From: Lactarius indigo
Lineage: Eukaryota > Basidiomycota > Agaricomycetes > Russulales > Russulaceae
Reading direction: 5' to 3'
NCBI GenBank assembly: GCA_025766275.1
Contig: JAFKAC010000024.1
Coordinates: 620,001 to 684,000 of the forward strand
Length of the DNA stretch: 64,000 nucleotides
A program made the position numbers and the translations under genes. Under the pieces are notes generated by a model that had not been told where the DNA came from, ran no database searches, and saw only the letters and a list, made by a program, of their open reading frames with translations. Shown piece by piece: positions 1 to 20,435 of the stretch (positions are counted from its first letter, which is position 1; every line of letters starts with the position of its first letter).

Positions 1-165
1 TAGAAAGAACAATAAGAACCATATATGGATCTGGTAATAAAGATAAACAAAAGTGGTCCGTATGAGTCCAGAGTGTCCATAAGTCCATAAGGGACAGATA
101 CCATTTTTAGTATGTGGGCTGACTCAATCAGATCCCACAAGACATGTGACTTTAACAGTCGCATC
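1..165. other. Left-edge sequence, unassigned
   Basis: No gene is recognisable. On the minus strand the stretch begins TGTTAAAGTC at about 156 and has the base composition and short words (TTTATCTTTATTA) seen in the copia-family LTRs of this window. It could be the edge of another LTR lying beside the retroelement-like ORF, but the other end is outside the window. Confidence 0.2.
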
Positions 166-1032
166 TCAACAAGAGTTGGTGGACTGTTGCTTAACAGCCT
201 TCTGCGTGACGATAGACGACCAAGAGGGAGGGAGATTGGCCGCTGGAGTAGGCTTGGTGGACCAATTAATGGGAGGTGGGAGGCAGTTGTCGCTCACAGT
301 GGGTGGGGCGTCTGTAGGGTCATCAGCTCGGGCCATGTGGCTCGGAGCCTCATCCATTACAGCGGCCGATGTACTTGTGGTGTTGGCGGGAGGAGGGGCT
401 GCCACCACCTCCTTCTGTTTAGCCGCTTTCGATCCTGCGTTTGGTTTGCCATTGAGGATGGTCTCAATGCGCTGATCTTGTGCCAAGACCTTTTCTTCAA
501 GGCGTGTAATGGTGCCTTGGATCAGTCGGAGCATCGAAACGAGCTCACTGTTGCCGCTGCCCAAGGGCGCGGGAGCGACAGGGGCTGCAAGTTTTGACAG
601 CGACCAGGCCATCGACACCAGGAGAGGGGCCGTCTGGGCAGTAGCCTCAGGCGGTGGCAGTTCAGGAGCAACTGCTGGGATAGATGATTGGGGTGGTGCG
701 AGCGGAGGTTCAGCGTTGCGGGAGATCGCGTGCATTGAAGCCCCTACACCGCCGTTAGAGTCCAGACGATCGGCGAGGGTGTCGATCGGGTGGTCTTCAG
801 CCATAGGGGAGAGGGCAAGAGGGGAGCTTGCAGGATGGGGTGGGATGGTGATTGGGAATGGAATGGGTCTGGTGACATCGACTGTGTAGTTGGTCTCAGG
901 TTCAGAGATGTCTGATCCGATTTCGGGGTCGACTGTTCGGACGCGTTTGAACCGAACAGGGGTCAGGGTCACGTTGCTGTCCACCTGAAGGGGGGCCTTG
1001 GGCGGGGTGTGCGGGGCCCATTCAGGGGACGG
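166..1032 (-). pseudogene. 3' half of a retroelement ORF1-like gene split by copia C1
   Basis: Minus-strand reading frame that continues in phase from the fragment at 21689-22128 once the copia element C1 and one copy of its 5-bp duplication GACGG are removed; the joined frame is 434 codons including the stop. The visible part is rich in proline, serine and acidic residues, has a short heptad-like stretch (LIQGTITRLEEKVLAQ) and ends with a PPSWSSIV motif resembling the end of ORF1 (gag) proteins of fungal Tad1-like LINEs. That assignment is an inference from composition only: no zinc knuckle and no reverse transcriptase is visible in the window. The first part of a 392-codon frame that runs past 1032 is copia LTR sequence, not gene. 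It could also be a host gene. Confidence 0.5.
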
Positions 1033-1338
1033 TGATGAACAGCATACATAAAGACCATACTCACAGTGGACAAGAGGACTGTGGTGAGATATGGAAGGTA
1101 GCTGGAAGCAGAGGTGTAACAGGGGATCTTGCAAGTAAAGCAGGGAGTCTGGCACACAACAGTGAGGAACTGATGTGGACCAGGAGCGTACAAGCCTACT
1201 ACTTATACTATACAGGAGAGTGACACTAGTACAAGAGAGGTAACATAGGGTCACAGAGTACAAGAGACGTTGTTCTACATGTGGGACAAAGGAGTGTGCT
1301 AATGGAGAACAAGGAGCACAGAACAAAGAGAGTCCAGA
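1033..1338 (-). repeat. Copia C1 3' LTR, first piece
   Basis: Matches 20448-20703 and 21334 onward of the 5' LTR nearly base for base. It stops at CCAGA (1334-1338), which recurs at 15078-15082 where the LTR resumes. It lacks one 52-bp unit present in the 5' LTR (the unit ending ACAGTGAGGAACTGATG). Confidence 0.93.
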
Positions 1339-1607
1339 TGTCATGAACCACCTGCTACATTTCCTTCTTGTCCTTATCTGATCTATCTCCTTTCTTGACA
1401 GTTACCTTTCTTGAACCTATGCTTCCCTTTTATCCGATTGCTCTAGCACCTTCTGTGCTATTCTTACCCTTCTCCTGCTTTGCTGGCATAACACCATCTT
1501 GCACAATGTTGACACCATCTTGCCAGCACGTTATCCTATCTATAGCAACCAGTAGCACTATGTGCTCAGGCGCAATCCTGTACTATATAAAGGAACCCTG
1601 TAGTGCA

Positions 1608-1760
1608 CATAATGATCAGCGGTGGCTTATGTAATTGATACCCCCAACCGACGGTGAGATTCTTTAATAGTTCATACTCAGCCGGCGCCGGCCGACGGCG
1701 GAGATTCCGCCATAATTGATACTCCAACCGATGTCGGCTGGGTCGGAGATAGTCGGGAAT
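1608..1760 (+). repeat. KDZ left terminal inverted repeat
   Basis: From 1624 (GGCTTATGTAATTGATACCC) to about 1760 this is the reverse complement of 14449-14584 with only a few mismatches. The outermost 16-20 bp are less conserved. It contains the palindrome GGCGGAGATTCCGCC (1697-1711) and the GCCGGCGCCGGC core. Confidence 0.93.
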
Positions 1761-2931
1761 AGTTGGGGATTGATGAGTTACTCGAACACAGAATAGAAAG
1801 GCTTAGAGGTGGCTATTATATGTGTAGTATCCAAAGGTGATGTGTAATCAATCAAAGGAGCAAGACTCAGGCATATAAGACCATCCACTCAGATATGTGC
1901 AAGCACATCAAATGAATACAAGTGAAACAGAATATATAAGGAGTGTCTGATCACAGGTGACTGTCAATTGATAGTCTATGCATATTAGGGAGAATATCTA
2001 ATAATAATATACCAATCGGGACACCCGCTATAATTGATAGTCTAATTGACAACAGGTGGGTCGGAGATAGTCGGGGATCTCTGAGGGTCATCATAAGCAA
2101 AATATAAATGAACAGAGATCATAGAGGCTACTATGTAGTCTATTCAGAGGTTATCTAATAAGAATATACCAATCATGACATCTCTGATAATTGATAGTGT
2201 AACTGACGATAGGTGGGTTGGAAATAGTCGGGGATCTCCAATGGACTTCATAAATACAATGGAAATGCATTGAGGTCATAGAGGCTACTAGTCTATGTGG
2301 AGTATCCAGAGGTCATCTATATTCAATAAAATGAGCAGAACGGAATATTTGATCACAAGTATGTGGTGACTGCTTATAAGTGTCAGAGACAACAGACAGA
2401 GTCAAGGCACAGTGAGCTAGAGCGGAGTTCCCGCTTGTGAATACATACAAATGCAGGCTAGTGGGTGTCGGTGAAAGGAAATACAGGGGAGTAAATAAGG
2501 TGAATACAGGATAGGGACCTCATAAGGATATACGACAGGACTTCCTAATTGGATGTGTAGAGATATAAATGGGTCCCCAATCTTTCAATTGGTGGTTTAA
2601 CCCCGTAAGATCTCTATAGACATTGCAGGTATTTACAGGACTTGAATATGGTTGTGGAAGTGCGGATATCCCGAAGCTCATATGCACATACTACTGGTCA
2701 ACAAATGATAGATTAGTACAGGAGAATATTAAGTAGTAAGTGGAAAGCATGTGCAGATATTCCAGTATGGAAATGTACATATAGACTACCTGGCTAGATA
2801 GCTAGGATGAACTTTTGCTGCACCCCTGCCAGTGTCCATATTCCTGGAGAATGATTAGAAAAGCGGGATTAATGGCTGGGAAACTATTGCATTGAAAGTA
2901 CTCACTTGATCTTCTCTGACACCTTGATAAA
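1761..2931. other. KDZ left subterminal noncoding region
   Basis: No coding frame of note. It holds several degenerate repeats of a subterminal unit: the words TAATTGATAGTCTAA or similar, GGGTCGGAGATAGTCGGGGA, and CTACTATGTAGTC or similar recur at about 1730-1770, 2035-2080 and 2190-2235. It also holds the palindromes ATCGGGACACCCGCT (2015-2029), AGCGGAGTTCCCGCT (2421-2435) and TGCGGATATCCCGAA (2661-2675). Confidence 0.6.
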
Positions 2932-4877
2932 TCATTTCCTTTTCTCTATAAGTGGGCTAGTATTGAGTTCCTTCATTTCCTGCACATGGTGTGTATCTGA
3001 TGGACCTGCTATATCTGAAAGTTGGGATGCTAGTATATCTGGGTAGCTGTGATGGGATATGGACGAGGTACAAACCTGATGATGATGATCTATTGATATT
3101 TGAAGATTTATATCCTGGAGAGTCGGGTGTTCTGTCATTCCCTAAACATATATCATGAATAAATGAAAAACACCATGATAGCAGCCATACTCACCAGGAT
3201 CAGTTTCTTCCTGAGACCCATGAAGTGGAGGAGATTCCGCAGCCCATGAATGGTCAGATGGCTCATCATGGACAGATGATTCATCCAAAGAGTCATCAGT
3301 CTTGTCACCCTGAGGATTAGAGTCCTCATTATAGTGAAGGTCAAAGGACTCTTCGTCAGATCCATCTGATTGCTTGGGTCGAGCACGTTGGATGTTCCGC
3401 TTATGTATTGTAGGCTGCTTCGTATCATTGAAGAGTGGGCATGTTGGAACCCACATCAGGGGATCAATACCTTGGTCTTGCCTATCCCTCCAATGGTCTA
3501 GAAGGCGAAAGACCTCATCAATCCGGATCTTGGATGGGTCCTTCCACTCAAAATCATATGGAATACATTCCTCATCTATCCAGGCAGATGGATCACTTGA
3601 CAATGAACCCCATGGAATGGTCTGGTTCTCGATTCCAGTGACATATCCTTATTCACATATGTGACATACTGCAGCACATGAATTGAAGAATGACTCACAG
3701 ATATGTGCAGTGCAATAGTCCCTCAGCAATGTTTGAACGACCTTAGCTTTATATCCATCATGGGAAACAACTGTCGGGAGCTCTGGGAATCCATCTGCAT
3801 TGAACACAAGGGGGATTGGGGTGGTGATGGTCTTTGAGAGGTCCCTTTTCGGATGTTCCTTCACAGTATCTGAGGCATACATTTATTAGATGTAATCACT
3901 TGAGACAAGATGATGGGCATAACATACCTTTGGCAAAGCACTGCATCCCAAATTGAGCCCATTGCTGCCAGAGGGCAGCACTCTTCCAGTCTGGACAGAA
4001 CTTCTGAAAGTCCTTTCCATCCTGCAATATACTGTTGACATCATTGCTAAGATCGGATCAACCGACGCTCAGCGGACATGACCAAGGGATATGTATTTGA
4101 TTGCTTACAAGCCTATCTTGAGGTCGTTGTCTTCACCCTCATATGCGGTTAGGACAATGGAGCGGATTCCGCATGTCCTATAAAGCTGACTTTGGAAGTC
4201 CTGGATGATCCGCTCACGCAGAGAGGATGCCATCCTACATAGGAGGTATATGAGGAATCAATCAACAGGTGATTTGGATATGTGCATACCTTGATTGAAT
4301 GTTCTTTGGTGGTGTCTTCTCTGACCACTCCCTAGCAGACTCTTGATACTCCTCTTGATCCTCAATAGACAGTTCATTCCATAGAGCAGTGGTTGCATCC
4401 TGAAGGGCCCCTATGAATGCAGGACTTCCCGGTTCTGTCCCAGAGGTCTCCTTTGCAAGCCTTAAGACCTCATCACGGTTCAGGTGATAGAATGCGTTCC
4501 TGGCGGACCATTTACGAGTAAACTTGATGTATTGACGCTTGGGGCGGACATAGTGGTTATAAAACCACTTGTGGATTTTCTGGGACGGGAAATGAGAAGG
4601 ATGGTCCGATATTCATAGTGAAACATGCATTTCTTGCATCCTTCTTGTCAAAGGGTGTATTAGCAGGGCGGAGATGATACAGCTCTCCCATAGCCTTCTC
4701 AACAATCCTAGTGCGATCATGAGTATCAGCCTCTTGGAACTTATCGAGATATTCTAGTAGAATGTCTCCATCTCGAGGGGTAATAGAGAATCCTGTGTTC
4801 ACAGATTGCTCCCCATAGCTCTGTAAGCTTGAGGGATCTCCGCTACCATCAGAATCATTGAGGTATTCATTCTGCAT
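2932..4877 (-). CDS. KDZ cargo gene K1: conserved hypothetical protein, multi-exon
   Basis: Several exons on the minus strand join into one protein. It starts MQNEYLNDSDGSGDP (4877), has a segment ITPRDGDILLEYLDKFQEAD and then, after an intron, WFYNHYVRPKRQYIKFTRKW, followed by FYHLNRDEV, EYQESAREWSEKTPPK, FQSQLYRTCGIRSIVLTAYE and DFQKFCPDWKSAALWQQW (4018-3930). The last exons give a long acidic tail ending near 2932. The arrangement, with an R/K-rich basic W-F-Y-N-H-Y block then a D-F-x-x-x-x-P-D-W-x-x-x-x-L-W block, is one I recognise as a recurrent uncharacterised protein beside Agaricomycete transposons. No function is known to me. Exon limits are approximate; introns near 4557-4610, 4260-4285, 4035-4105 and 3900-3926 are inferred from GT/AG and frame continuity. 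Confidence 0.7.
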
Positions 4878-5484
4878 AATGGATGAGATGAGGATGGATA
4901 GATGGACAAGGTATGGTGATTGAGACGATGGACAAATGTACTAGGTGTGATGCTTAAGTGGATGGATATGAACATCTCATCGTGATGGCCAGTCATTAAA
5001 TATGTTCCTGTGATACAATAGAGAATCGGATGATGGTCGGGAATGGTCCGACATCAAGCACCAATACAATGAAACTGTTTGAGCAATGTGGGGTCTCATA
5101 TTGTGCAAGAGGATGTCCTGACGTGTAATAGCCATGGCATGACTTGGTATTACAATGTTCTAATAGTGGACCTCTGCACCTGAAGATGAGACATATGTGA
5201 AACATGTATGGACATGTGGAGACAACAGATGGGGCAGAAAGGAGCACTTGAGGATTTGATATCAGAGTGGACATATGTGATGATATAATGGTCATAGTAC
5301 ATGTATCGGGCGAAGCGGACATCCGGCTATGTATATCCACCATACAGCCCATTCAATTGACATTTACATATAACATGGTACAGGAATCGGGAGAAGCGGA
5401 AATCCGACCAACTATATCCGCTATATGTTCCATATGATTGACAGCTACATATGACACGATACATGGGCTACGCAATAGTGCGGA
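4878..5484. other. Noncoding gap between KDZ cargo genes K1 and K2
   Basis: No gene seen. It contains two near-copies of a 60-80 bp unit around 5300-5340 and 5385-5425 (ATCGGG, GAAGCGGA, ATCCG, then CTATAT near CCGC/CCAC), each carrying a version of the dispersed palindrome (AGCGGACATCCGGCT 5314-5328; AGCGGAAATCCGACC 5395-5409). Confidence 0.45.
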
Positions 5485-6519
5485 TCACCCGAGGGCGGCC
5501 GCAGTCTGTTCAATCTCAAGAACTACCTTGTGAAGCTCGTCATTTATGTCTTTCAAATTAGCCCTAAGCTTGGTGACTGTTTCCCACAGTTGTGCAAGCT
5601 GAATCTTGAGCGCAGCTGTCCTGGCATCCAATTCGCCAAGGTCTTGGGGCTTTGTGGTGGCGGGGATGGTGATACCCATCGGATGCATGGTGCCGGTGGG
5701 AGCGGATGTCCCGGGGGACACAGACGGCTTTGTGGGGAGCTCCGCAGCACTACGAGTTACAGGGCGAGTCACCCCACTGCAGACGTCCTGCGACTTGTCC
5801 GATGCAATGGGCTGTATGCATATGTCTTTAGGATCTGTGGGATGTGTGTAATAGATGTATAAATACGTACCCGTGCTTTCGGAACACCCGCCTTTCTATC
5901 AGACGTCTTAGTAACGTTGGGCAGTTGTTCAGGATCTGCACCATCAAGATCCATGATATCCGAATCCTAGAATAGAGGTAATGTGTGAATATGATATAAA
6001 GCACACTTAGACATACCTGCATCTCTGCAGACGTCGAGTCCACTAGGGATAAGTCAACGACAGCAGCAGAGGGTTTCCCCTTAGCTGTGGAGCCCGCCGG
6101 ACCTCCCTGCGGGCGACCCACGAGCCTTTGAGATGCAGGGATGAGGTCCATAAAGTCGTCGAGTGGGGATGCACCCCAGACCTTCATCCTCTTCGCATCA
6201 GGCTGTAGGGGACGATGTTAGTATGTATCAGGCATATAGTGATGTAATTCCATACCTTGGTGCGTACATCCTTGTTACCCACCGCCTTAGGGAGTGGAAT
6301 GACTGGAGATGGAACGCTTGACAGAAAGTCAAAGCCATCATCTTCCACAGCCGCTTTTGGGGCCGGCGGAGGTCCCATTGACTTGGACTTAGCACGATTC
6401 AGAGGTTTGATGGGAGCAGGCTTGGGCTTGATGGGAGGAGGCTGGGGCTTACTTGGGGCGGGCTGGGATTGCTCAGATGTGCGAGACTGAGAGCAGGAAG
6501 AGCGGGGAGCGTCGGACAT
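5485..6519 (-). CDS. KDZ cargo gene K2: proline-rich protein with C-terminal coiled coil
   Basis: Starts MSDAPRSSCSQSRTS (6519) and continues through a P/K-rich stretch with repeats of PxxIKPKP type. It is then spliced to a block with KRMKVWGASPLDDFMDLIPA (near 6190-6140), then PSAAVVDLSLVDSTSAEMQ, DSDIMDLDGADPEQLP, and finally an exon ending ELDARTAALKIQLAQLWETV plus a heptad-rich tail that stops at 5485. Four short introns with GT/AG ends are needed. The coiled-coil C-terminus suggests self- or partner-binding; I recognise no enzyme domain. It is divergently oriented to K3, with about 250 bp between the two starts, so the two may share a promoter region. Confidence 0.6.
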
Positions 6520-6771
6520 AGTTGCTGTGCTCTGAGAAGTGAGGAGGCCTAGTTCAGCGAATATATTATTGTTTCAAACGTGTCCCAATCAGATTCGATG
6601 TGTACGCATATGTACATGTGATCTGTCTTTGATTGGAAGCATGGGATCAGACATTGGACATGGGTCGTGGGAAGTCCGATAGAGCCTGACATGGTTCTTT
6701 GGGGGTTATTCTGTGAGCGCATATCTCTCCCATATCTCCCCCGTATATCCCGCTCCGCCACATCACTTGCA

Positions 6772-8652
6772 ATGGCTAAGAAAGCTGTCACAGAATTGAC
6801 GAAGGACGAAACTGTCATGCTTGTGATAGCTGCTAAGTGCCTGGCAGCAATTAGACACGTTGCAGAGGTCCCTACGACGGCTGAGCAACTGGCCATGCTC
6901 AACAAGCATGTCAGTGTGGAGCTGGTAAGTCAGTCCGATAAATATACTGAGCAATAAACTGATACATGTTATAGAAGACGGTTAGTGCGATATTCAGACG
7001 GTATATAGACCGCCCCAAGAAGCCCAGGCTTCATGCAGTCGCCCAGGTAATGGGATACGAGTGGGGGAACGCTAGGCGGGAGTCCCGCGATCCAGACTGG
7101 GAGAATGTAACCATCGATTACATTGCATCTCTATGCGAAGAACAAGAGAGAATAAGTCCGGACTGGCATGAAGCATACTCATCTATCGATCTAAGCAAGT
7201 ATTTGGAGGGTATTCAGCCGAAGAAGATGTGGTGGGCTCCTGTCAACGAATATGTGGATGATGGTACGTCCCCTGCATCCACTTGTTCCATCGCTCACTT
7301 GTGCCAAGTCGCTATGGATGAGCCAGCAGATGACCCGGCGGATGACCCGGCGGATGAGCCTGCAGATGGCTCCGCGGACGAGCCTGCGGATGATCCCATG
7401 GATGATCCTGGAGATGGCTCAACTCATCCATCCAGACCAGAGTCGTCCCTCGCAAGTGCAACGCTTCCCGACAAGGGAAAGGCTCGAGCTGATCCACCAC
7501 CATCTGAGGCCTCGAAGCACCCATATGGCCTGCGGAACAAGAAGCGGCCTGCTCCGGCGAGCCCCGATGAACCAACTGTGGAGTCAGAGGAGACAACCCC
7601 TCGGAAGTCCGGCAAGTCGCAAGTTGAGGTGGTTATTTCATCCCCTCCTCGTGCTAAACAGCGCCCACATCTTGAAGAGGACAGTACAGTTGAGGCCACG
7701 GGTCTGGTGAGCATTGTGGACTTATTCTATCATTTTATTGGTTACTATATTCGCTGCAGGATATGTGTGGCCCATGCATAACTCGCAAAGCAAAGGCGTG
7801 CAAGCCACAGGCCAATGTGAAGCGCCTGACGTCCGCTTGCGTCGCCTGTGCGACTCTACACAAGACCTGCAGTCTGCCTGCATCCTGGGGCATCAGGCCA
7901 CATTGGATGGGGGATGCCCGATCCACCTCGTCCGTACGCACGCAAACCCCGAGTAAGTCCGGTATATTTCCGAACGCGAATGTGCCAGAGATATCACTTA
8001 TAATATCTAGGCATTCTCGTGGATGCGCAAATTGAAGCTCTTGCACAACGGGTGGACGAACTGTCCAACGAAACACGTGATTTGAAGAAGGACCAGGCCA
8101 CATCGATAGAGGAGAACTGTCGCGGACGACGTCGAACGAACCAGAAGTTGCAGGACGCTCTCCTCATGCTGGGAGTGCTCTTGGAGAAGCAGGGGGTCGA
8201 CTCTTCCTCTATCCCCGGCATCGGACAGCCCGCTTCCAGTACCACTAATTCCCCTGGCCTCCAGGCCACATCTTCGCCGGGAATCCCCTTATCTTTACTC
8301 AAACTTTCAGATGCGCGTTCGAATGCATCATCGAAAACTTCAAGCGTCGTTTCAGAGCCCCGCCAAGTGATGGGTACGTATTATTCTTATAGCGGATGTC
8401 CCGCTCTGACATGCATTTCAAGTGGATCGATTGGGTGGGAGTGCCCCTGCCTCCAAGGCCCCATCTGTCACCTCTCGCCATTCCGTGGCCTCACACCATT
8501 CCTCTGCGGGTGGGCCGCTGCGCCAACCATCAGGTGAGTAGTTTGTGTTTCTTGGCTGTTTCATGCACACCTAACGTATGCTTCAAGTTGTGCGTTCAGG
8601 TGGGAGTGCTGCATCACGCAGGCCATCGCCGGAGATCCCCCCCACACAGTAA
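6772..8652 (+). CDS. KDZ cargo gene K3: protein with Cys-cluster, possibly DNA binding
   Basis: Begins MAKKAVTELTKDETVMLVIA (6772) and is spliced at about 6926-6973 to an exon that includes ARRESRDPDWENVTIDYIAS and KMWWAPVNEYVDD. Next come an aspartate/proline tandem tract (7318-7420), a basic segment HPYGLRNKKRPAPASP, an exon with CGPCITRKAKACKP and CVACATLHKTCS (7762-7905), and a heptad-rich exon AQIEALAQRVDELSNETRDL. It ends VRSGGSAASRR then a stop at 8650-8652. The C-x2-C-x6-C spacing with a second C-x2-C-x6-C resembles fungal Zn2Cys6 binuclear clusters followed by a coiled coil, the layout of many fungal transcription factors, but the cluster sits in the middle of the protein and the spacing is not exact. 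I infer a nucleic-acid-binding role. Confidence 0.65.
7318..7420 (+). repeat. In-frame tandem repeat in K3 (DEPADDP type)
   Basis: Runs of GATGACCCGGCG / GATGAGCCTGCG-like 12-bp units encode an acidic D/E-P-A tract. The units are irregular and stay in frame. Confidence 0.75.
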
Positions 8653-9253
8653 ATAATCGAATATGCGTTTTAGGACAATTTGTAATCATGTAGTCGGACT
8701 TCCCCATTTGAATGAATCGGTACATGTGACGTGTGTGCAATCAGTTTCATGTGATCCATCTGTCATTTGCTTCATGTGACCCATCTGTAACATGTGACGT
8801 TGTACATCATATGACTTGATTCCCATATGTGGGATTCTGCAAAGCTGAGTGGCATGCGACTTAATACATCAGACCATCCGGAATAAACCCAACTCACACC
8901 CTAAATACATCTCCATTAAGTGGTTGGCACATTGCAAAGGTGGGATACATGGCTGAATATCTCTGTAGTAAAGCTGGCAGGTTGTATCACATATGCCTTC
9001 TATAGATCATATCAAATATGCATGTGTTTAGAGTATTGTATGTCTAGTATTATTCCTTCGCCATTTATATGTGACACTGAAACAGCGGACCATCCGACAT
9101 TCATGCCATGTCATATATTGAGGTGTAGTCTAACAATTACCATAGATCCTCAGGCAGCGTTTCATGTATCCTCAGCAAGGCCAAACCTGTTTCACATGTC
9201 CATGGTATTTATATTGCTTCAGGTTTAGCTACTCTATTGCTCTACTACCAATC
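8653..9253. other. KDZ internal noncoding stretch
   Basis: No gene recognised. It has several close copies of CATGTGAC(C/G) with TTCATGTGATCCATCTGT (8690-8830) and one copy of the dispersed palindrome (AGCGGACCATCCGAC, 9084-9098). Confidence 0.4.
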
Positions 9254-9886
9254 ATGCAGTCTCACACATCCAAAGGCAAACTTGTATCATCCACATCAAA
9301 GCCCTCCAGGTACACCAGCACCATTCACGAACATAAGCGGATCTCCCGCTCCCCCCCTCTCCACACTCCCACCATGTTTTCTGATCTGTGGACGACTCAC
9401 CCTCTGATACACAATCATTTGATGAGGATGACATGTATGGCTCAGATGGTGATGTTGAAACCATCAGTCTGAAACCCCTGCTGGAACATGTTTCTGAGGA
9501 GCAAGAAACAAGTTCAATCAATCAATGTGTGGTATGTACCTGTCACCATCAATTCTTCCTATTCCATCTTACCTTTCAAGGCGGATGTGGAACATCCTTT
9601 GGAGGAGCAGGAAAGCTCACTCAATGAATATGAGGTGTGTACCTGTCATTGCCAATCAATTCCATCCATCTTACCTTTCAAGGTGGACATGGATATCATT
9701 TCCGACTCAGAGAATATACACAGGAGTGTGAACGACTTCTCCCTCATGGTAAGGGCACTGTGTGAGGCAGAAGGGATTGATGTTTCCAATATTTCACATG
9801 GAACAGAAGATAGCCTGTATCATGATGATGGGTTGGATCATGCATCGGAGATGTCTTCGGAATTAGGAAATACTAATGATAGTTGA
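9254..9886 (+). CDS. KDZ cargo gene K4: small acidic protein with duplicated exon-intron unit
   Basis: Probable start MQSHTSKGKLVSSTSKP (9254); later exons read DDSPSDTQSFDEDDMYG, VDVEHPLEEQESSLNEYE, then VDMDIISDSENIHRSVND and end ASEMSSELGNTNDS (stop 9884-9886). Two introns of about 65 nt begin GTATGTACCTGTCA and GTGTGTACCTGTCA and both end CTTACCTTTCAAG. The exon between them looks like a tandem copy of its neighbour, so an exon with its intron was duplicated. The product is strongly acidic; no domain recognised. It lies 226 bp upstream of the transposase start in the same direction. Confidence 0.45.
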
Positions 9887-10112
9887 TTAGAAGGTTCCCC
9901 TTGATGTAGACTATTGTACTGTGGTCGTACTGTCTCATGTAGGGTTTCACATTGGGACTGGTTTCAGATTTGAAGGTTGGACAACACCACTAGTGGATCA
10001 ACCAGGTGTATAGATCATTGAGGATGCTCAGGTATATTTAAGAACGGAGATAATCCATGTCACCCATTGACCTTCATTCACACCATCTTCATTCTATCCA
10101 TTTCCATTCATA

Positions 10113-13100
10113 ATGCCTCCAAAGAATACCTTCACCATTCCCATGGGAGATGTTGTTGAGGTTGTTAACCAGACACGGAAGACTAAGCGGGGACTCCGTA
10201 CCACTGTAAAGGAAGTCCCTTTCCACTTAAAGAAGGGGAAGTCAGGTCAAGCTTCAATGTCTCAAACTGGAGTGGAGACCACTATGGAGACAGTACAGTC
10301 GCAGTCATCCAGGGACTCACCACATGGGATAGAGGAATCACATACCCTTCACCACATAGAGCCATATGAACCTGATTTGCAAGACTTTCAAGCAGAGGAA
10401 TCCCAGCCCCAACAAAGTGTATGTCCACAAACCTCCTATGATCATTGTCGGACTTCTGATTATTCATAGACACCAATAAGCCAGTGGACAGACATGCGGA
10501 GCAGATACATCCACCTGTTGCTCGAGATGGAGGGTCTGACAAGTGCTCCAAATTGCTCTATGTGTACCAGTTCAATGCAGATCAAGTGCTCCGATTGTAT
10601 TGGAGGAAAGTACTTCTGCAAGGAATGTTGCCTTCAAACACATATGCGATCCCCATTCCATCGGATGTCCCGCTGGACTGGCACACACTTTGCACCAATG
10701 TTATTAATGTCAATTGGATTTAAGCTCTGCTTTGGTTATGATGGGAGGCCATGTCCACTTACAGTGGAGGTATGAACATATCAGATATATGAATCCCACA
10801 TATACTCATATATCCATAGGGACACCAAGCGTCAGATGGGACACAGCGCAGAAAGCGGACGTCCCGTCAGACTCGTTCTGCATCACTTGTATCTGTTGAG
10901 GAAGAGCAGGCTCATTCATCGGGAGGTCCACAGCCTTCGTCACAAACTCTTGAAGATATGCCTGGGATTTCAGATACATTGTTTGACTTTGCTGGGGATG
11001 TGTTGGATCCCTCTGAGGGAAACACACGACGCACTCGGACCACAATGTCGGGAAACCCGCTGATCACCGTTGTCAATCAAACAGGTGTCTTTGATATGGA
11101 TGTACTCTTCTGCATATGCCCCAATGCTGGTGCCAATGATGAGCAACTACTCCAAGCTGGAATATTTCCTTCAACCTTCAAGCAGATTGAGACTGCATTC
11201 ACCTTCTCAGTTCTGGATGACTTCTTGGCTGACAACCTGGAGTGCAAGACAACTGCACAACAGTACTATTCTAAGCTTCAGAGCATCACCAATCGGATGT
11301 TCCCTGACCATGTCCCGGTGAGTATCAATGCTATCCTGATACTGCATAACATCTTATTGATGGAGACATATAGAACCTCTACAAACAGCTCTTGAGGGCA
11401 TCCCGACAATGGAGGGACTTGAAGAATAGGATTGAAAGCGGTTTGGGACATCAGCACACAGGGACATCCGCTAATGAAGGGTCCATGGCCATATTCTGTC
11501 CAGCCTGTCCACAGCCAGGCATCAATCTACCAGATGATTGGAGGACCAGATATAATGATAAGCCGTATGTATTCATTGAGAACATGTCAAATATCTCAGT
11601 ATTGACTTGCTCGAAGGAATCAACTCATCTGAACCTTCATAATGGATGGCAACTTCTCAGCAGAGCACATGAGGTGTAGGACAGGAGATACGGACGTTCC
11701 GCTATCAGCGGGGATGGCCTTCATGGCAAATCCCAATTCATATAAGGCTCATCTGCATAGTGGGCAAGAGATTTCCCAGGTATGTCAGATACTATTGACA
11801 GTGACTGTTGTCTTATAGTCTCATAGCCCAGCACATGTAACACATACAGGGCCATTGAACAGGCCAATTCAAGTCGTCCACACCTTGATGTTACAGGCAT
11901 CGGAGCAACCGCATGCTGTCATGGATTCTTTGTCCCTACATCTGTAGTTGACTTCCAGAAGGGAGAGAGGTATGTCCGACGCATTAAGCACCCTAAGTAT
12001 GGAATTGATAATTGATGTATGTTTGATGTCAGGCAAATCAATATGGACTATAGCCTTTGCAAGGCCCTTTCCTACAATATGGGGGACATCCCTGTGGCCT
12101 TGGTCATGTATAATATCATGTGCCAATATGGTGTTCACTTCAAGGAAAGGGTGGAGAAGAGCCCGGAGTTATCTCTGTCTAGCTCATTGCAACTTCACAC
12201 TGGGATTGGCCTCTTTCATATCCATGGCCATCAAGATTCATGCTTACCCCGCTTTTCCCCAAGCTATATCCCTGGAGCGAAGCAGGTGGATGGAGAGATC
12301 ATTGAGACATTGTGGGCACCACTCAATAACATCTCACGGAGCATCCGTGGGATGTCCCTTGCCCATCGCCAGGAGGTATTGGATGCACATATGAACCATT
12401 CCAATTGGAAGAAGATGGTCCGCATTGGTCCGTTTAATCTGTATCTATAATCCATTTGATTCTAATATAATAATGTTCCAGTTCCATCACTTCTGAAGCG
12501 GTGGAAACGGATGGATAATGGTATAGATCTCAGTGCTGAGATATTAGACACTCTCAATGCAAGGTTCAAGAAGAAGACTAAACGATGGCTTAAGGCAGAA
12601 AGTCATGCTCAATCAAACAGGCATGAAGACCCCACTTTAATGGACATATATGATACAGTGACATCCAAAGGTATTGTGACCTGACAAATCCTATGTATTC
12701 TATACTAATGTCTATCATTAGCTCCCTCTCGTGCAGAGATTCAGCAGCAGCTGATTTCGGAGGAGAGCGGAGATATTACTGCTCATGGTCAAACATCTTG
12801 GATTGCATGTGGGATAAAGATCCAGGAGTTGCAGTGAGTCCATCCAATGACCCATTTGACTGTTGGTTAACATCCACTCTGTAAAGGCTTGCTATCAGAT
12901 ATCAACTCCGAGCACATGGTCTGAAGATCAACACTGAGGAGGCTCAAGTCATTGAAAACAAGCGGAGTCGCCTTCAGAAGCTCATTGACATATTTGAGCA
13001 CCAGGGAGATTCCTTCCTACTCCACCAGCCGCTTGCAGATGATTCCTCAATAGTGCCTTTGGGTGACTATGAGGAATATGACCATGTGGATGATCTTGGA

Positions 13101-13986
13101 GATCCTGAAGATACAGATGATGATCATTCAGCCCATGCCTCCATCTGTCCTACTCCGCAAGCACTGGATGGATCTGGGATGGATGCAACTAATCCTGAGG
13201 ACTTTCCGGTCCTCCTCCCATCATCCCTTGGATGGGAATGGTGTGTTAGGCATGGTTTCCAATCCCTTGCTGGAAAGGAGGTACAGCTACGCCATGCTCA
13301 AGCTAGTGAATCCATTCATGGAATCCGCCTCGCTCTTGGATTTAAATCCGCTCTGTTCCGCACTCAGGTACGACCTGCTCACACACAACAGACAAAGACC
13401 CGCGCCTGGAATGCCATACACAGTGTTGACACTAATGTCCGTGAGCATGCGCGCATATATAGCATGGCACGGGATGCCTATAGGAAGCTCCGCAAAGCTG
13501 CACCCATTCCACAGGACCTCCCGAAGCTCCATTCAAAGGATCTCCGTGTAGCAACATTGGTCCTTGGATCACAACAAGTAGGACAGTGGAATACACAACA
13601 ATCCTGGATCTGGGGCTTTGGCAATACCACTGAAGATGATGGAACATGGATGGATGATTGTATGTGCTCCATTGAATTCTATATTCATGTGTTCATATAT
13701 TCATACAGTTGAAAGGGTTCACTGGCTCCGTGCAAGGGCACAGTTTGAGCGGTGGTCAGAGGAACAAGACAGCATCCATAATGAAGCTAAATGGATCCCA
13801 GCATACTTCCATTCCAAAGCAGAGACATGGAAGAAACTCATGATCATTGCTGCACAAGGTTCATTAAAGGGGCATCAAGCATATGCATCATACCAGATGC
13901 ATGCATGGGAGGGACTTTCCAGAAGCTCTGTGAAGGCTCTTACTCCGATTACTGATGCTCCATTGAAGCACTGTAAGATGAAATGA
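10113..13986 (+). pseudogene. KDZ transposase, multi-exon, with probable inactivating changes
   Basis: Start MPPKNTFTIPMGDVVEVVN (10113). About twelve short exons follow: a CxC2-type cysteine cluster (CSMC, C-x2-C, CKECCLQTH, PFH, W-T-G-T-H-F; 10550-10700), FCPACPQPGINLPDDW (11490-11540), the MDGNFSAEHM strand (11643-11672), STCNTYRAIEQANSS, DFQKGER, INMDYSLCKAL, VMYNIMCQYGVHFKER, GLFHIHGHQDSCLPRF, QVDGEIIETLWAPLN and GMSLAHRQEVLDAHM (12354-12398), with a C-terminal helical region ending at 13986. These blocks in this order define the KDZ family, whose RNase H-fold transposase is expected to use Asp/Asp/Glu. Two oddities: TGA at 11630-11632 where Arg is usual just before the T-F-I-M-D-G-N-F strand, and Asn (12112-12114) where the Y-D-I-x-C-Q motif normally has Asp. 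Confidence 0.88.
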
Positions 13987-14448
13987 GATTGCTTGTCCTG
14001 ATTCATGTATTCCTCCTATAGTACATATCAATTGACATAAGTGTTTGGTTCTTGCAAATGAAATGAATGGCTTTTCTCGAACCCCCCGATCCCCTCTCAT
14101 ATATATCCATTTGCCTGTGACAGGAATTAAGTGGAGGTCCGCTTTTGGGCAATGCTGTTGGACTATCATTACAGCGGATTTCCCGACATGTATATTCTGA
14201 GTATGAACTATTAGTTATTAGCTATTTCCCCCAACACCGATCATCTATCATTATATATTGACTTGCGATCAGATGTTCATTACTTGTCCAATATAATTGT
14301 AGTTGTCTGATATGTATGCAATTTGCTGTACATATCTCAACAGGTGATCAATGATCCCACACACCTAAACAGTGCTCACCCAGTCAAATATTTGAGTTCA
14401 AGAGCATCTCTGGATACCCTACATTATCATGGAACTATCCGCATGGAT
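13987..14448. other. KDZ right subterminal noncoding region
   Basis: No gene. AT-rich, with one dispersed palindrome (AGCGGATTTCCCGAC, 14173-14187) before the right inverted repeat. Confidence 0.5.
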
Positions 14449-14602
14449 TTCCGATTATCTCCGACCCAGCCGGCGTCGGCTGGACTATCAATTATGGCGG
14501 AATCTCCGCTGTCGGCCGGCGCCGGCTGAGTATGAACTATTAAAGAATCTCACCGTCGGTTGGGGGTATCAATTACATAAGCCATCGCTATCCATTGGCT
14601 GT
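14449..14602 (-). repeat. KDZ right terminal inverted repeat
   Basis: Reverse complement of the left repeat (1608-1760), including the GGCGGAATCTCCGC palindrome and the GCCGGCGCCGGC core; followed by the target duplication GTAGTGCG at 14603-14610. Confidence 0.93.
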
Positions 14603-15082
14603 GTAGTGCGCCTTAGCTCCTTAGCTTTGGCTTAATCAACTATCTGCATTGTATCTCCATTAACTCCTTGAGTGCCTTCAGTCCCTTCAGCACTCAAGCC
14701 CTTGACCCAGAACCTCTGACCCTTGACCCTTATCCCCTTTGGGTCATTCCCCTCTCAGCCTCTGTGCAGGCTTCCCCTTGACTTCGCTCCTATCCTCTTT
14801 CTGTCTTACTGGTCAGCCCAGTGACACGTGACCTTTGGACTTAGGCCCTTGAGCTCGTCCATTGCTAACAGACTCAGTCACCTTAGCGCAAGGGGCTGTT
14901 ACAAAAGGACCTTCTCGCCTCATCACAGGGGGATTGTCACCGACTTAGCTACCGCAGCATAGGAGCTATTACAGAAGCCCTTAGGAATCCTTCCACTCAG
15001 TGGGGATCCGACTCAGAGTCCTTTGCCTCAGGCAAGATCTGTTACAGAACGACGCACGCCCCCGCAGAGGCGTGACACCAGA

Positions 15083-15354: not shown

Positions 15355-18300
15355 CTAAGTACACAAGAGTCCCATGTCATCATTGTGCTTCTGCAGCAGG
15401 ACACATGGTAGTGACTTTGTAAAGCCGTCCGCAACCATATCCACAGTAGGAGTTCTAATGAGGGTGATGGTCCCCTTTTCGATGTACTCCCAAATGACAT
15501 GATGCCGTATGGCAATGTGCTTAGACCGTCTCCCAGTGACAGGGTTCAAGGCCAAGTCAATGGCACCCTTATTGTCACCATGCAGTGGGATGGGGTCGTC
15601 GACCTCGTACCTGAGTTCCGTGAGGAAGCTCTGATACCACGCAGCCTGGTTAGCCGCGTCGGTCATGGCCATGTATTCTGCTTCCGTTGTGTTTTGGGCA
15701 ACAGTCTTTTGCTTGCGCGAAGACCAGCTTATTGCACCGTTAGCTAGTAGGAACACATAACCAGAGGTGGAGTGGCGGTCATCAGTCTGATCAGCCAGAC
15801 TGGAATCAGTGTAGCCGTGAAGGCCATCGCCATTGGTGCCATCATAGACAATACGCATATCCATAGTTCCCACTAAGTAGGACAGGACATACTGCGCAAG
15901 TCGCAGATGTTGTGGTGAAGGGTTCACTGCGTACTGCGCCAAACGTGACACAGCGAAGGAGATATCTGGCCTAGTGCCAATCTGCACGTAAAGCAGACTC
16001 CCAATAAGAGATTGGTAGTGAGAGATATCTGAGGCAGTTGCCTGCGACGTATATTTAACCAGGTGCTCGTCAGCACCAGCGGGCAAGGGTGTGTTGTGTG
16101 GTGTGGCATCAGTCATGCCAAAGCGTTCAAGGACATCCTTGATGTAGCCAGACTGATCTATTTCGATGCGTCTAAGGGAGTGGTCGCGCACAATGCGCAT
16201 ACCAAGATAAGATTTTATCTCCCCGAGATCTGTCATCTCATAGCGTTCAGACAAGTCTGACTTAAGATGCTTGATACCACTCAATGAGGGACCCAGTATA
16301 GTGATGTCGTCAACGTAGACAATAACGAAGAGTGGATCATACCCCTCTCGTTGAGGCATCACATATATGCCAGCATCAGCAAACGTCTGCTTAAAGCTGA
16401 GTGCAGTGAGCACTCCATGGAATTGCAAGTTCCATGCGCGGGAGGCCTGTTTGAGACCATAGATCGCCTTAACTAGGCGACACACCTTCGTCTCAGAGCC
16501 AGTGACAGTGAAACCTTGTGGCTGCTCCATGTAAATCTCCTCATCAAGCACGCCATTGAGAAAAGCAGACTTAACATCCATCTGATGGATGTGCCAGTCC
16601 TCCAGCGCGGCCAACGCCAGAAGTAAACGTAGCGACTCAAATCGTGCGACGGGAGAGAAGGTTTCATCAAAATCTACGCCAGGGATCTGCGTGAATCCCT
16701 TAGCCACCAAGCGAGCTCTATAGCGGCCATCCGCTTTGAGTTTAAAGACCCATTTGGATTTTACTGCCTTACGATTAGGCGGGAGATCCACTAACTCCCA
16801 AGTCCCATTCTTAGCTAGGGCGTCCATTTCATACTGGCACGCCTTAGTCCACTCATCTGCAGCTGCAGACCGCATGGCCTCTGCATAGGTTGCAGGGTCT
16901 CGGCCCACAAAGGCAGCAGCCAGTAACTCTGCATTCCCCAGATGTCTGCCGCGCCATGCTGCATTGTCCACATTGAAGTAACGTGGATTGGGCACAGGGA
17001 CACGAGCAGTGCGCCTTGGTGCATTGTCCATCTCGCGCAACAGCTGACTACGCTGTGCACGATCCTCAAATCCCCCAGGCATTTCTGGTGAGGGAGGAGG
17101 GACATGGCGCATAATGCGCGTTGCACTAGGACGCGGCGGGGGTGAAGTGGGAGTGGTCTGCTCACGTTTAGGTGTGGTGGGCAGAGCTGGCAGAGCAGGT
17201 GGTGGCGTGGTAGGGCGTGATTGGACTTGTGGGGGGTCTAAAAGGTTTTCTACATCCTCCTCCTCACTACTACTGGAGTGTGCAGGGGAGGGTGCTCGCA
17301 TTGGTGGTAACGCCGGCGGGTGAGGCACGGCAGTCACTGTTGTGCTAGGCACGACTGGTGGTGAAGGTGTGGGGTGTGTCTCAACACCCTGGAGGGACGG
17401 GAAGCTACTCTCGTCGAATGTCACATCCCTGGACACTCGAACGGAGCGGGTTGAGCGGTCCCAGAGCTTATAGCCCTTAGATTCGGGCTCAAACCCAATA
17501 AGCGTGACCTCAATGGCCTTCGCATCCAATTTGCGACGCTTATCAGCGGGTACGTGCATGTACCCCTTGCATCCGAAGATGCGAAGATGTGAGACATCAG
17601 GCACTTTGCCAGAGTGCCAGAGCTCATAGGGAGTGCGCCACTTAAGCCCACGGACTGGAGAGCGGTTATAAATGTGCACAGCTGCGCACACTGCATGCTC
17701 CCAGAAGCCTTTAGACATGCCAGCTGTGTGGAGCATGGACATTGCCTTATCCATAATGGTGCGGTTAAACTGCTCGGCTTTCCCATTGGACTGTGGTGAA
17801 CCTGGCATTGTGAGGTGATGCTCTATCCCTTTCTGCTTAAGAATGTCCTGCGTGACACTTGACATGTACTCGCCACCGCAGTCAGAGTGCAGAGCGCGCA
17901 GTTTATGGCCAGACTGGGTTTCACCCCAGGCCAAATACATTTGCAGCGACTTAGCAAACTGATCCTTCGACTTAAGGAAGTGGACCACAGTGAACTTAGT
18001 GTGGTCGTCTATGAAGGTGGCTGTGTATGTCGAGCCTTGCAGAGACTGAGTTTGCATAGGACCGGCGAGGTCACTGTGCACAATCTCAAATTGACGAGTT
18101 GTCCTCTTGTTTGAGGACGCAGAAAAGGGTTGGCGAGTGGATTTACCAATCTCGCACCCACGGCAGACTGTGTGGGCCGTGGTAGAGCTATCTATGTCCA
18201 TGCCAGTAGTGGCAGAGGGACCATGCGCCTTCAGCGCTGCAGAGGAGATGTGTCCCATGCGTTGATGCCAGATATCAAGTGTGGCAGCACTTGATTTTGT

Positions 18301-19665
18301 GTGGGTGTTGAGGCCGACGCAGGCTGCGTCCAACCAGTACAGGTTGTCCTCAAGGTAGCCTTTGGCCACACACTTTTGGTTGACAGATATTTTAAAGGAG
18401 CCACTGTCAAAGGCAATCTCAGCACCCTTTTGTGCTAGGGCGCGCGTCGACAAGAAGCGCGTCTTCACCTGTGGTAGGTGTAGCACATTGCTGAGGGTGA
18501 TAGAGATGCCCTGGCTCGTAGTGAAGACGACAGACCCGACACCTACTTGGTCTATTGTGGACTTATCCCCTAGGCGTACAGTGCCTTTAGTTGGGGTGTA
18601 GTCCTTGAAGTCAGACCGATGTGGGGTGATGTGGTGTGTGGCACCGCTGTCCATCATCCAACGCACACGCGAGGCAGCATACAAGGCAACACCGATTGAT
18701 TCAGAGGCCCAATCTATTTTGGGCTCTACGACCTCCGTAATGGAGGCGGTGGTAGGTACTAGGACATGACTATTGGCGGCCTTGTTGCCTGCTTTCTCCT
18801 TCTCCTTTGCGTCAGCCTCATCCTTCTTCCTCCTCCTGCAATCAGGCTTGATATGGCCCTTTTTGTTGCAGTAGTGGCAAGTCAGACCGGAGTGGTCCTT
18901 CTTGCCTTTCTTGCCTGTCGACTTGACGGGGGCCACCTTGTTGAGGGAGGAGCCAGAGGGCCCAGCACGGCGAGCTTCTTCTGACACTATGCGCGCTATG
19001 ATCTCAGCGTGCTTAAGTCCAGAAGGGGCCCCACTGGCAAGGATGGTAGAGGCCAACACCTCATATGAGGGCGGCAGTGCGTGGAGGAGAATGAGACAGA
19101 ATTGAGTGTCAGTGACACCCATTTGTGCGTTGGAAAGGGCAACCCGTAGCTCATTGAGCTTGGCCAGCTGAGTGGCCATGGGTGCGGAGTCGTCAAGGCG
19201 GGCTTGTGTTAGTTGGATCCACAAGTTGAAGATGGTGGTGCTGCCCGAAGCACCAGCGTATACGTCTCTGAGCTTGTCCCACTTGGCTTTGAAGGTGGGA
19301 TAGGCGGCATTGTCAGCAACGAGGGAGTAGACGTCAGGTTTGAGGTAAAGGCGGAGGTACGCCTTCGCCCGACGTTGTACTGAGTCCCATTCGTCTTGAG
19401 AGACATCAACTGGTCCATGGTGGAGGGTGAACACATCCTCTGCTTCGTGCAGCGTGAGGATGGCTTCAATTGTCCCAGACCACTCATTCCAGTGAGTGCC
19501 GTTGAACTGTTCAAGGCGAATGCCAGAGGGCATGCCGAACGTTGCGCCATAGGCAGCAGAGATTCGTGTAGAGGGTGTGGACCCAGTGGGGGGAAGCGTG
19601 GAGCCCCCCGCAGTAGCAGTAACACCGGCAGCAGCGCCAGTGGGAGATGGTGTGTGAGAAGACAT
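15355..19665 (-). CDS. Copia gag-pol polyprotein, uninterrupted, 1436 aa
   Basis: One frame from MSSHTPSPTGAAAGV to DMGLLCT. In order: a capsid-like region (about 40-230), a CCHC zinc knuckle CHYCNKKGHIKPDC (about 265), protease with WMMDSGATHHIT (about 340), the integrase zinc region with HQRMGHIS and CRGCEIGKSTRQPF, the integrase core with HSDLAGPM, FIDDHTKFT, HSDCGGEYMS and GKAEQFNRT, a proline-rich linker, reverse transcriptase with WVFKLKADG, QMDVKSAFLNG and YVDDITILG (about 1120), and RNase H with SSRKQKTVAQNTTEAEYMAM. Integrase before reverse transcriptase is the Ty1/copia order. All recognisable catalytic motifs are present and no stop is seen, so the protein could be functional, but the 3' LTR of this copy is split by 13.7 kb. 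Gag and pol share a single frame, as in most copia elements. Confidence 0.96.
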   Translation of the reverse strand: MSSHTPSPTGAAAGVTATAGGSTLPPTGSTPSTRISAAYGATFGMPSGIRLEQFNGTHWNEWSGTIEAILTLHEAEDVFTLHHGPVDVSQDEWDSVQRRAKAYLRLYLKPDVYSLVADNAAYPTFKAKWDKLRDVYAGASGSTTIFNLWIQLTQARLDDSAPMATQLAKLNELRVALSNAQMGVTDTQFCLILLHALPPSYEVLASTILASGAPSGLKHAEIIARIVSEEARRAGPSGSSLNKVAPVKSTGKKGKKDHSGLTCHYCNKKGHIKPDCRRRKKDEADAKEKEKAGNKAANSHVLVPTTASITEVVEPKIDWASESIGVALYAASRVRWMMDSGATHHITPHRSDFKDYTPTKGTVRLGDKSTIDQVGVGSVVFTTSQGISITLSNVLHLPQVKTRFLSTRALAQKGAEIAFDSGSFKISVNQKCVAKGYLEDNLYWLDAACVGLNTHTKSSAATLDIWHQRMGHISSAALKAHGPSATTGMDIDSSTTAHTVCRGCEIGKSTRQPFSASSNKRTTRQFEIVHSDLAGPMQTQSLQGSTYTATFIDDHTKFTVVHFLKSKDQFAKSLQMYLAWGETQSGHKLRALHSDCGGEYMSSVTQDILKQKGIEHHLTMPGSPQSNGKAEQFNRTIMDKAMSMLHTAGMSKGFWEHAVCAAVHIYNRSPVRGLKWRTPYELWHSGKVPDVSHLRIFGCKGYMHVPADKRRKLDAKAIEVTLIGFEPESKGYKLWDRSTRSVRVSRDVTFDESSFPSLQGVETHPTPSPPVVPSTTVTAVPHPPALPPMRAPSPAHSSSSEEEDVENLLDPPQVQSRPTTPPPALPALPTTPKREQTTPTSPPPRPSATRIMRHVPPPSPEMPGGFEDRAQRSQLLREMDNAPRRTARVPVPNPRYFNVDNAAWRGRHLGNAELLAAAFVGRDPATYAEAMRSAAADEWTKACQYEMDALAKNGTWELVDLPPNRKAVKSKWVFKLKADGRYRARLVAKGFTQIPGVDFDETFSPVARFESLRLLLALAALEDWHIHQMDVKSAFLNGVLDEEIYMEQPQGFTVTGSETKVCRLVKAIYGLKQASRAWNLQFHGVLTALSFKQTFADAGIYVMPQREGYDPLFVIVYVDDITILGPSLSGIKHLKSDLSERYEMTDLGEIKSYLGMRIVRDHSLRRIEIDQSGYIKDVLERFGMTDATPHNTPLPAGADEHLVKYTSQATASDISHYQSLIGSLLYVQIGTRPDISFAVSRLAQYAVNPSPQHLRLAQYVLSYLVGTMDMRIVYDGTNGDGLHGYTDSSLADQTDDRHSTSGYVFLLANGAISWSSRKQKTVAQNTTEAEYMAMTDAANQAAWYQSFLTELRYEVDDPIPLHGDNKGAIDLALNPVTGRRSKHIAIRHHVIWEYIEKGTITLIRTPTVDMVADGFTKSLPCVLLQKHNDDMGLLCT

Positions 19666-20435
19666 TGGGATGATTTATCTATCGCCAAGGAGCAGTCAGC
19701 GATAGTGCTTCATAGTTTGCAAGACAAAGATAGAGGGGGATACCACTCCTGTCTGTGATTCTGTAAGGCCAGAACGCTAACGTGTCCTGTCTCCTGATAG
19801 TATGCCAGTGTTACAAGGGCTAGGCCCAGGTTGGAAGAGTCCCTTTGCCATACCATGAGCTAGCTGCCAGCCAGGATGTGTCTAGGACACAGCTCAAATG
19901 GTTTGCGTCAGGGGGAAGGTGAAGGGATTGCTTTCAGAGCCCAAGGCTGTCTACCTCAGCCTTCTCGGCCTGTTGGTTGCCTCATCGCCACAAGTGGCTT
20001 TACTGAATCCTTTCCCATTGCCGCTACAAGGCAGGTATCTGGTTGCAGAACACCATAATGGTGAACACCCCCCAGAGCCTGAACCAGGTTTTACACTCCC
20101 ATGGTGAGGAGATCCTGCGCCCAGTGTGGAGCACCAGAGACAGCTGGCGCTAAGCTCCACAATACACAGCCCAGTGGGCCATGCACGCCTGGATATTTTG
20201 AAGTTAAGGGGCTACCAGACCCAGTCTCCTTGCGCATAGCGCAGGGGCTAGGAAAACAGTAGGGGTGAAAGTAGGACTACTGGGCAGTACATACACAGGA
20301 GGTTCCTTAGCAGAGACAAGTGGCGCCCCACTGCTCTCTGCCTTGGGCAAGGCTGGTAAGGCCCCAGACAGACCTTAGCCTGGTGTGTCCTCCTAGGAAG
20401 ACAGTGACCAGCCAAGTGGAGTGGCTAGGGCACCA
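19666..20435. other. Copia C1 untranslated leader
   Basis: About 770 bp between the primer-binding site and the gag-pol start (on the minus strand). Short frames only; no gene supported. Such long leaders usually hold packaging and translation signals, but none can be pointed to here. Confidence 0.55.

Follow-up and report, generated by a model that had tools for sequence, protein, structure and literature searches.

Why should a transposon carry the same short palindrome from end to end, through its exons as well as its terminal repeats, and what would read it? The question is raised by a KDZ element within a 64,000-nucleotide stretch of the Lactarius indigo genome (hereafter the window), in which an earlier note had described a scattered 15-bp imperfect palindrome and suggested that it might be the site of a dimeric DNA-binding protein. 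The fixed-spacer inverted pair of CGG triplets found here supports that suggestion as the favored reading, and we put at roughly 0.55 the probability that the motif is bound by homodimers of a Gal4-type (Zn2Cys6-like) protein encoded by the element itself, most likely the product of its gene K3.

The element is a KDZ transposon. It matches the KDZ domain (PF18758, 96.1 bits, window 12031-12405, equivalent to G000:C157:632031-632405), its transposase has a CxC-type cysteine cluster (PF18803 CxC2, 72.7 bits), and it ends in terminal inverted repeats (TIRs) flanked by a short target site duplication (TSD), with borders shifted by one nucleotide from the 1608-14602 originally proposed:

1607..14601, no strand: KDZ element of family F6, 12,995 bp, delimited by TSD, TIRs and KDZ domain match
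1599..1606, plus strand: left copy of the TSD, TGTAGTGC, 8 bp
14602..14609, plus strand: right copy of the TSD, TGTAGTGC, 8 bp
1611..1770, plus strand: left TIR, 160 nt, 91% complementary
14437..14596, minus strand: right TIR

Shortly inward of the left TIR are two 144-nt direct repeats at a spacing of 157 bp (1990-2290) that share TIR sequence. Passages of PMC12810828 describe Cryptococcus KDZ1 as having 8-bp TSDs and 241-bp TIRs, and passages of PMC12730594 describe Laccaria Kyakuja as without TIRs and with TSDs of 7 bp. The 90-Mb L. indigo genome contains at least 175 KDZ domain matches, a count in which one copy may match twice. Sorting these matches by open-frame length gave families F1 to F7, which are working labels only, with the window copy in F6; all of the results concern this one species, and the families besides F6 are represented by one or a few copies each, some of them incomplete.

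In its clean form the site is AGCGG-N5-CCGCT, that is, an inverted CGG-N5-CCG, in agreement with the consensus first proposed. The element has 24 copies of CGG-N5-CCG, versus five in the remaining 51,005 bp of the window, whereas each of the other spacers examined (0-4 and 6-15) gives 0-4 occurrences in the element and 7-17 outside it. The first spacer base is A at 19 of the 24 sites and the last is C at 15. A weight matrix, iterated and trained on the F6 element itself so that the sister family F7 serves as the independent test, scores 45 element sites at more than 12 bits, or about one per 290 bp, versus a mean of 0.95 in 60 shuffles; the spacing of some 700 bp given in the earlier note was therefore too sparse. 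Its impression that the flanks lack the motif holds, as there are two weight-matrix sites in the 49.4 kb to the right and none in the 1.6 kb to the left. Motif discovery, which the note had recommended, leads to the same site: in a dyad scan with no preset motif, the top five dyads are all fragments of GCGGANNTCCCG. The excess is one of geometry rather than composition, because the element is no richer in CGG and CCG triplets, with 18.3 per kb, than the flank, with 23.3. Across the whole genome there are 70 matches to the exact 15-mer pattern and none to a reversed-pattern control; among the matches listed, the central pairs are GT, TG, TC and CC only, which are those of perfect F6 and F7 sites.

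The sites are spread evenly along the element (Kolmogorov-Smirnov p of 0.97 for the 24 sites and 0.34 for the 45), with no confinement to subterminal regions of the kind seen for TnpA of Spm. They lie in both TIRs and in the genes, as had been noticed at the outset, and 17 of the 18 start positions originally listed fall within 2 bp of a site by consensus, weight matrix or CGG-N5-CCG; there is no site at 4161. The gene regions are:

3145..4940, minus strand: K1 gene region, with a weak HMG-box match in the exon at 4265-4612
5488..6217, minus strand: K2 gene region, with frames common to F7 and a weak IFT57 match (E 0.049)
6772..8534, plus strand: K3 gene, exons 6772-6924, 6975-7706, 7760-7952 and 8011 to about 8368, then more; deposited model P0001
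10071..13983, plus strand: KDZ transposase gene region, with the CxC2 exon at 10820-11392

The 24 CGG-N5-CCG sites are:

1699..1709, inside the left TIR
2017..2027
2423..2433, perfect 15-mer
2663..2673
4054..4064, K1 region
5481..5491
5703..5713, K2
5880..5890, K2
7077..7087, K3 exon 2
7339..7349, K3 exon 2
8222..8232, K3
8393..8403, perfect 15-mer
8507..8517
9086..9096
9338..9348, perfect 15-mer
10188..10198, transposase gene
10662..10672, transposase gene
10856..10866, transposase gene, CxC2 exon
11049..11059, transposase gene, CxC2 exon
11691..11701, transposase gene
11901..11911, transposase gene
12337..12347, transposase gene
14175..14185, right subterminal
14498..14508, inside the right TIR

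Could the coding sequence itself account for so many sites in genes? Coding-like frames, defined by homology between families rather than by full gene models and spanning at most 8,520 bp, hold 31 of the 45 weight-matrix sites, in all three phases and on both strands. When synonymous codons were shuffled, the transposase (12 sites versus 1.62 expected), K3 (8 versus 1.41) and K2 (4 versus 0.16) were each matched by 0 of 500 shuffles, and K1 (1 versus 0.10) by 48 of 500; the shuffles covered 9 of 11 transposase, 2 of 4 K3, 1 of 2 K2 and 5 of 6 K1 frames, some of them trimmed. Because the sites occupy all frames and both strands and exceed what protein sequence and codon usage lead one to expect, the constraint acts on the DNA. 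The same two observations rule out an amino-acid repeat as the source of the sites.

K1 is present in F7, F5, F3, F1 and F2 as well as in F6, and its HMG_box_2 match (E 0.004) is below the cut-off; the F5 copy gives a match as well (E 0.003). Just to the right of the element, at 15355-19674 on the minus strand, lies an uninterrupted 1,439-aa frame with the look of a copia-type polyprotein.

Is the motif peculiar to this copy, or even to this family? Its absence from other KDZ copies would have counted against the reading in the note, and what is found is that F7 has it and that F1 and F2 have a motif of their own. In 13,135 bp from two F7 copies, CGG-N5-CCG occurs 29 times versus 0.7 expected. 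Identity between F7 and F6 is about 75% for the first cargo gene and 83% for the transposase, with little in common in between. An F7 TIR site occupies the same place as an F6 TIR site; its flanks have altered and CGG-N5-CCG has been kept. In F1 and F2, CGG-N5-CCG is not enriched, and GCTGCCGA (reverse TCGGCAGC) is found instead: F1 has 42 copies over 17,910 bp, the first 1,770 bp being free of it, and F2 has 32 over 12,823 bp, as compared with only two in the entire window. Some of the F1 copies are in tandem, close to both ends of the examined stretch. Of the aligned F1 sites, 10 of 17 are identical in F2, versus 20.5% of GC-rich 8-mers in a comparison that ignores local identity, and 14 of 31 F1 sites and 14 of 32 F2 sites lie in unaligned parts.

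The transposases of F1 to F7 are homologous. CGG-N5-CCG occurs 7 times in 3,913 bp of F6 and 11 times in 4,300 bp of F7 transposase DNA, versus none in 16,519 bp from F1 to F5; TCGGCAGC occurs 5 times in F1, 8 times in F2 and in none of the other five families; TCCGGA occurs 10 times in F4, 9 in F5, 4 in F3 and once in F7. Homologous transposase exons thus differ in the motif they bear, at least for F6/F7 versus F1/F2, and for these two pairs the motif of one is rare in the other families. Motif assignments for F3 to F5 are tentative. F5 has 84 copies of ACGGAA/ACGGAC, many of them in arrays, built of 32-bp and 24-bp units, toward the stretch ends, where the half-sites are paired, inverted with N12 on the left and as CCG-N6-CGG on the right (L057 560-1272, L058 2031-2727). 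F3 is rich in TCGGAC, partly in tandem, and with the arrays masked the TCGGAC excess does not surpass what simple repeats produce in control stretches. At the F4 locus L052 no motif is prominent across the whole 10 kb, and in its last 3 kb TCCGGA occurs 10 times versus 2.4 expected. The arrays near the ends of the examined F5 and F1 stretches bear their own family's motif, and the motifs of F6/F7, F1/F2 and F3-F5 all contain CGG.

What protein might read such a site? Zinc-cluster proteins of the Zn2Cys6 class have the pattern CX2CX6CX5-12CX2CX6-8C. The candidate reader is K3, whose gene occupies the middle of the element, right of K1, and encodes an acidic repeat, then CGPCITRKAKACKPQANVKRLTSACVACATLHKTC, then a probable coiled coil. 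The cysteine cluster ascribed to it from the first is thus there, as a six-cysteine, Zn2Cys6-like one, and so, probably, is the coiled coil, judged by eye. Deposited K3 models agree with the splicing read here apart from one further intron within 6975-7706.

7766..7870, plus strand: K3 six-cysteine Zn2Cys6-like cluster
8011..8200, plus strand: probable K3 coiled coil that follows the cluster, read by eye; weak ZapB and bZIP_1 matches (E 0.03-0.2)

Six of the seven families have such a cluster, on the plus strand to the right of K1 in F7, F3 and F5 as in F6, and on the plus strand to the left of K1 in F1 and F2. The six cysteines are invariant across the six clusters and few other residues are kept. 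With a cut-off of E 10, a profile built from the six clusters has seven matches in the PDB (E 0.08-3.5), to Put3 (two), Leu3 (two), CBF3 subunit B, Pho7 and another transcriptional regulator, all of which we take to be Zn2Cys6 proteins; as each E-value is weak, the likeness rests on their unanimity. K3 matches 12 L. indigo proteins, and two more weak matches cover 4-5% of it. Genome searches with the F6 K3 find homologues on contigs bearing F6 and F7 KDZ copies, and with the F5 K3 near F4 copies too. The cluster protein of F1 and F2, which has relatives in L. pseudohatsudake and L. vividus in its F2 form, may by its cysteine pattern be the counterpart of K3. The attraction of these candidates is that paired CGGs are the typical target of Gal4-type proteins, which bind them as dimers joined by a downstream coiled coil, as set out in passages of PMC5559640.

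A number of observations weigh against K3 as the reader. None of the clusters reaches the Pfam Zn_clus gathering score of 21 bits, the best being 15.0 bits for F1 (E 0.028; F2 0.53, F3 0.81); those of F6, F7 and F5 do not match Zn_clus, and that of F6 gives instead SRAP (E 0.1) and FYVE_2 (E 0.27). An NCBIfam search with the cluster exons returned nothing relevant. The spacing is CX7 instead of CX6 in F6, F7 and F3, both Put3 alignments match with their halves in swapped order, and an AlphaFold model of the K3 cluster is unusable (predicted local distance difference test score, 43). A loose form of the cysteine pattern has three matches in 49.4 kb of flank, two of them resembling retrotransposon zinc knuckles. 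The F1 and F2 cluster frames (L049, L050) have no BLAST similarity to the F6 K3 and lie elsewhere in the element, which lowers the odds of K3 as reader, and of the broader proposal given below, and raises those of the transposase. At L052 of F4 no cluster was found; there, positions 1-7000 probably hold a nested insertion between K3 and the transposase, because the K3 homologue starts 13.4 kb before the KDZ exon versus about 5.4 kb in other F4 copies (C24, C11, C90). Nor do F1 and F2 sites have a strong preferred pairing, unlike a Gal4 dimer site, and the F5 transposase shows no excess of ACGGA[AC] (0.53 per kb, versus 0.91 in the flank).

Conservation of individual sites, seen between F1 and F2, is not seen in the comparisons with F6. 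Between F6 and F7, site cores in the transposase are conserved at 0.854 versus 0.834 for their surroundings (p 0.38), and at the single K1 site at 0.70 versus 0.75. Across 11 F6 loci, where CpG decay dominates, there is no signal of purifying selection on the core, the raw variability of which is in fact higher (2.9% versus 1.6% elsewhere) because it is CpG-rich; at CpG positions 32 of 494 are changed in the core versus 231 of 2,560 elsewhere (p 0.066), and at other positions 1.4% versus 1.3%. Finally, the argument that the putative reader differs between families as the motif does is blunted by the fact that the transposase does likewise.

How do the alternatives fare? Chance or base composition has a negligible probability. 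It can draw on the fact that the motif was originally chosen by eye from this very element, and on a scan for 8-mers with one mismatch in which control stretches of the window, owing to simple repeats, reach log10 p of -8 to -12, a range that takes in F6 (-9.3) and lies below F3 (-7.3), but F1 (-55), F2 (-44) and F5 (-25) fall far below those controls, and for F6 the dyad scan, the shuffles, the spacer control, the flank counts and the held-out F7 all contradict it, on which grounds it was rejected. Very improbable, too, is a micro-repeat that inserted repeatedly or was duplicated in tandem. Some F5, F3 and F1 copies do lie in tandem arrays, and F6 has its 157-bp subterminal repeats, yet F6 sites vary in both spacer and flanking bases and most of them are not arranged in tandem, and where an aligned site is not shared between F1 and F2 the difference is a substitution in 7 of 7 cases in F1 and 7 of 8 in F2 (with one gap, in F2), a pattern that led us to reject micro-insertion.

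The two remaining alternatives concern who reads the sites and what for. It is unlikely, in our estimation, that the transposase does so through CxC2, with the TIR sites serving transposition and the internal ones acting as decoys or as a mark against self-insertion: this would fit the presence of sites in the F6 TIRs and at the matching place in F7 despite changed flanks, as well as the variation of the CxC2 exon by family (82% identity between F6 and F7, 55-71% between F6 and F3-F5), but KDZ transposases otherwise remain similar as the motif changes, and inverted CGG is typical of Zn2Cys6 dimers, and it is in K3 that a cluster resembling theirs is found. That K3 is an ordinary activator of the element's own genes, with no further role for the internal sites, is somewhat unlikely. 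Its acidic repeat, cluster and probable coiled coil do resemble those of Gal4-type activators, but the sites are uniform over 13 kb, more than control of promoters requires, and coding-like frames, with their 31 sites, are about as dense in them as the rest of the element with its 14.

If K3 is indeed the reader, how might it work? We infer from sequence that the sites are bound, that it is K3 rather than the transposase that binds them, and that the internal sites serve in activation or against silencing. Each K3 cluster would contact one CGG half-site, and the coiled coil would join two K3 molecules such that only inverted CGGs five bases apart would fit. Sites in the TIRs may assist assembly of the transposition complex, as TnpA does in Spm. 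In the interior, exons included, K3 might label the whole element as self and keep transcription on or silencing off, as VANC does for VANDAL; the internal sites fit a role of this kind, whether unsilencing or a self mark, because their spread covers exons and interior. Outside the motif, CpG positions in F6 loci (L001, L005-L008, L043-L048) differ from the window copy at 9.0% versus 1.3% for other positions, and this decay suggests that F6 copies are methylated; silencing would therefore be a live threat to the element. It would seem that the protein has changed in step with its sites, as other KDZ families have their own six-cysteine protein and their own CGG motifs.

It is instructive to compare this arrangement with known systems. 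According to passages of PMC5735166, VANC of the Arabidopsis VANDAL elements reads a family-specific short motif that is dense in one family and rare elsewhere; the KDZ motif is likewise dense and family-specific, protein and motif vary by family, and a protein of the element may be the reader. VANDAL motifs, however, are described there as lying mostly in non-coding DNA, with a shared orientation and frequently in tandem, whereas here most lie in coding-like frames and on both strands, F6 sites are mostly not tandem, the candidate is Zn2Cys6-like, and demethylation is a feature of VANC. Passages on TnpA of En/Spm (PMC2613891) present a parallel in that the candidate DNA-binding protein is separate from the transposase and repeated end sites differ between related elements, although TnpA sites are subterminal and KDZ sites cover the whole element, exons included. 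With Gal4-type regulators such as Put3, Leu3 and Pho7, K3 shares a six-cysteine cluster, a probable coiled coil and, as its putative sites, CGG pairs; it differs in scoring below the Pfam cut-off, in the CX7 of some families and the swapped Put3 halves, and in being encoded by a transposon that its putative sites cover. TET-bearing Kyakuja elements belong to the same superfamily, and F1 and F2 carry TET/JBP, which has 39 matches genome-wide, among them C95:25566 and C112:621020 in the two loci checked, 3-4 kb from the KDZ exon; TET/JBP has no match on the window contig C157, a further point against the K3 explanation. For Kyakuja, anti-silencing was proposed to occur via TET, and neither a dispersed motif nor a Zn2Cys6-like protein is mentioned in the passages of PMC12730594 consulted.

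It is tempting to go one step further and suppose that fungal KDZ elements have a self-addressing system in which each family has its own zinc-cluster protein and a target site over its whole body, exons included. The protein would coat only its own family, either bringing in TET-type demethylation or taking its place, and would assemble the transposition complex; a switch of motif would go with a switch of protein as families split, and the system would have an origin separate from that of VANC and a different fold. This broader proposal is tentative, and we hold it to be possible rather than probable. Neither a dispersed motif nor a zinc-cluster gene is mentioned for KDZ elements in the titles and abstract openings that were surveyed or in selected passages of PMC12730594, PMC12810828 and PMC7641404, which is not proof of absence.

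Sequence-specific self-recognition and escape from silencing by transposons are known in few systems. Here a candidate reader is paired with a motif in exons, in several families of one genome, such that the co-evolution of a protein and its sites would be directly readable, and each candidate reader could be tested with one short probe. If the proposal is true, the K3 proteins of Lactarius, unannotated as they are, would gain a function.

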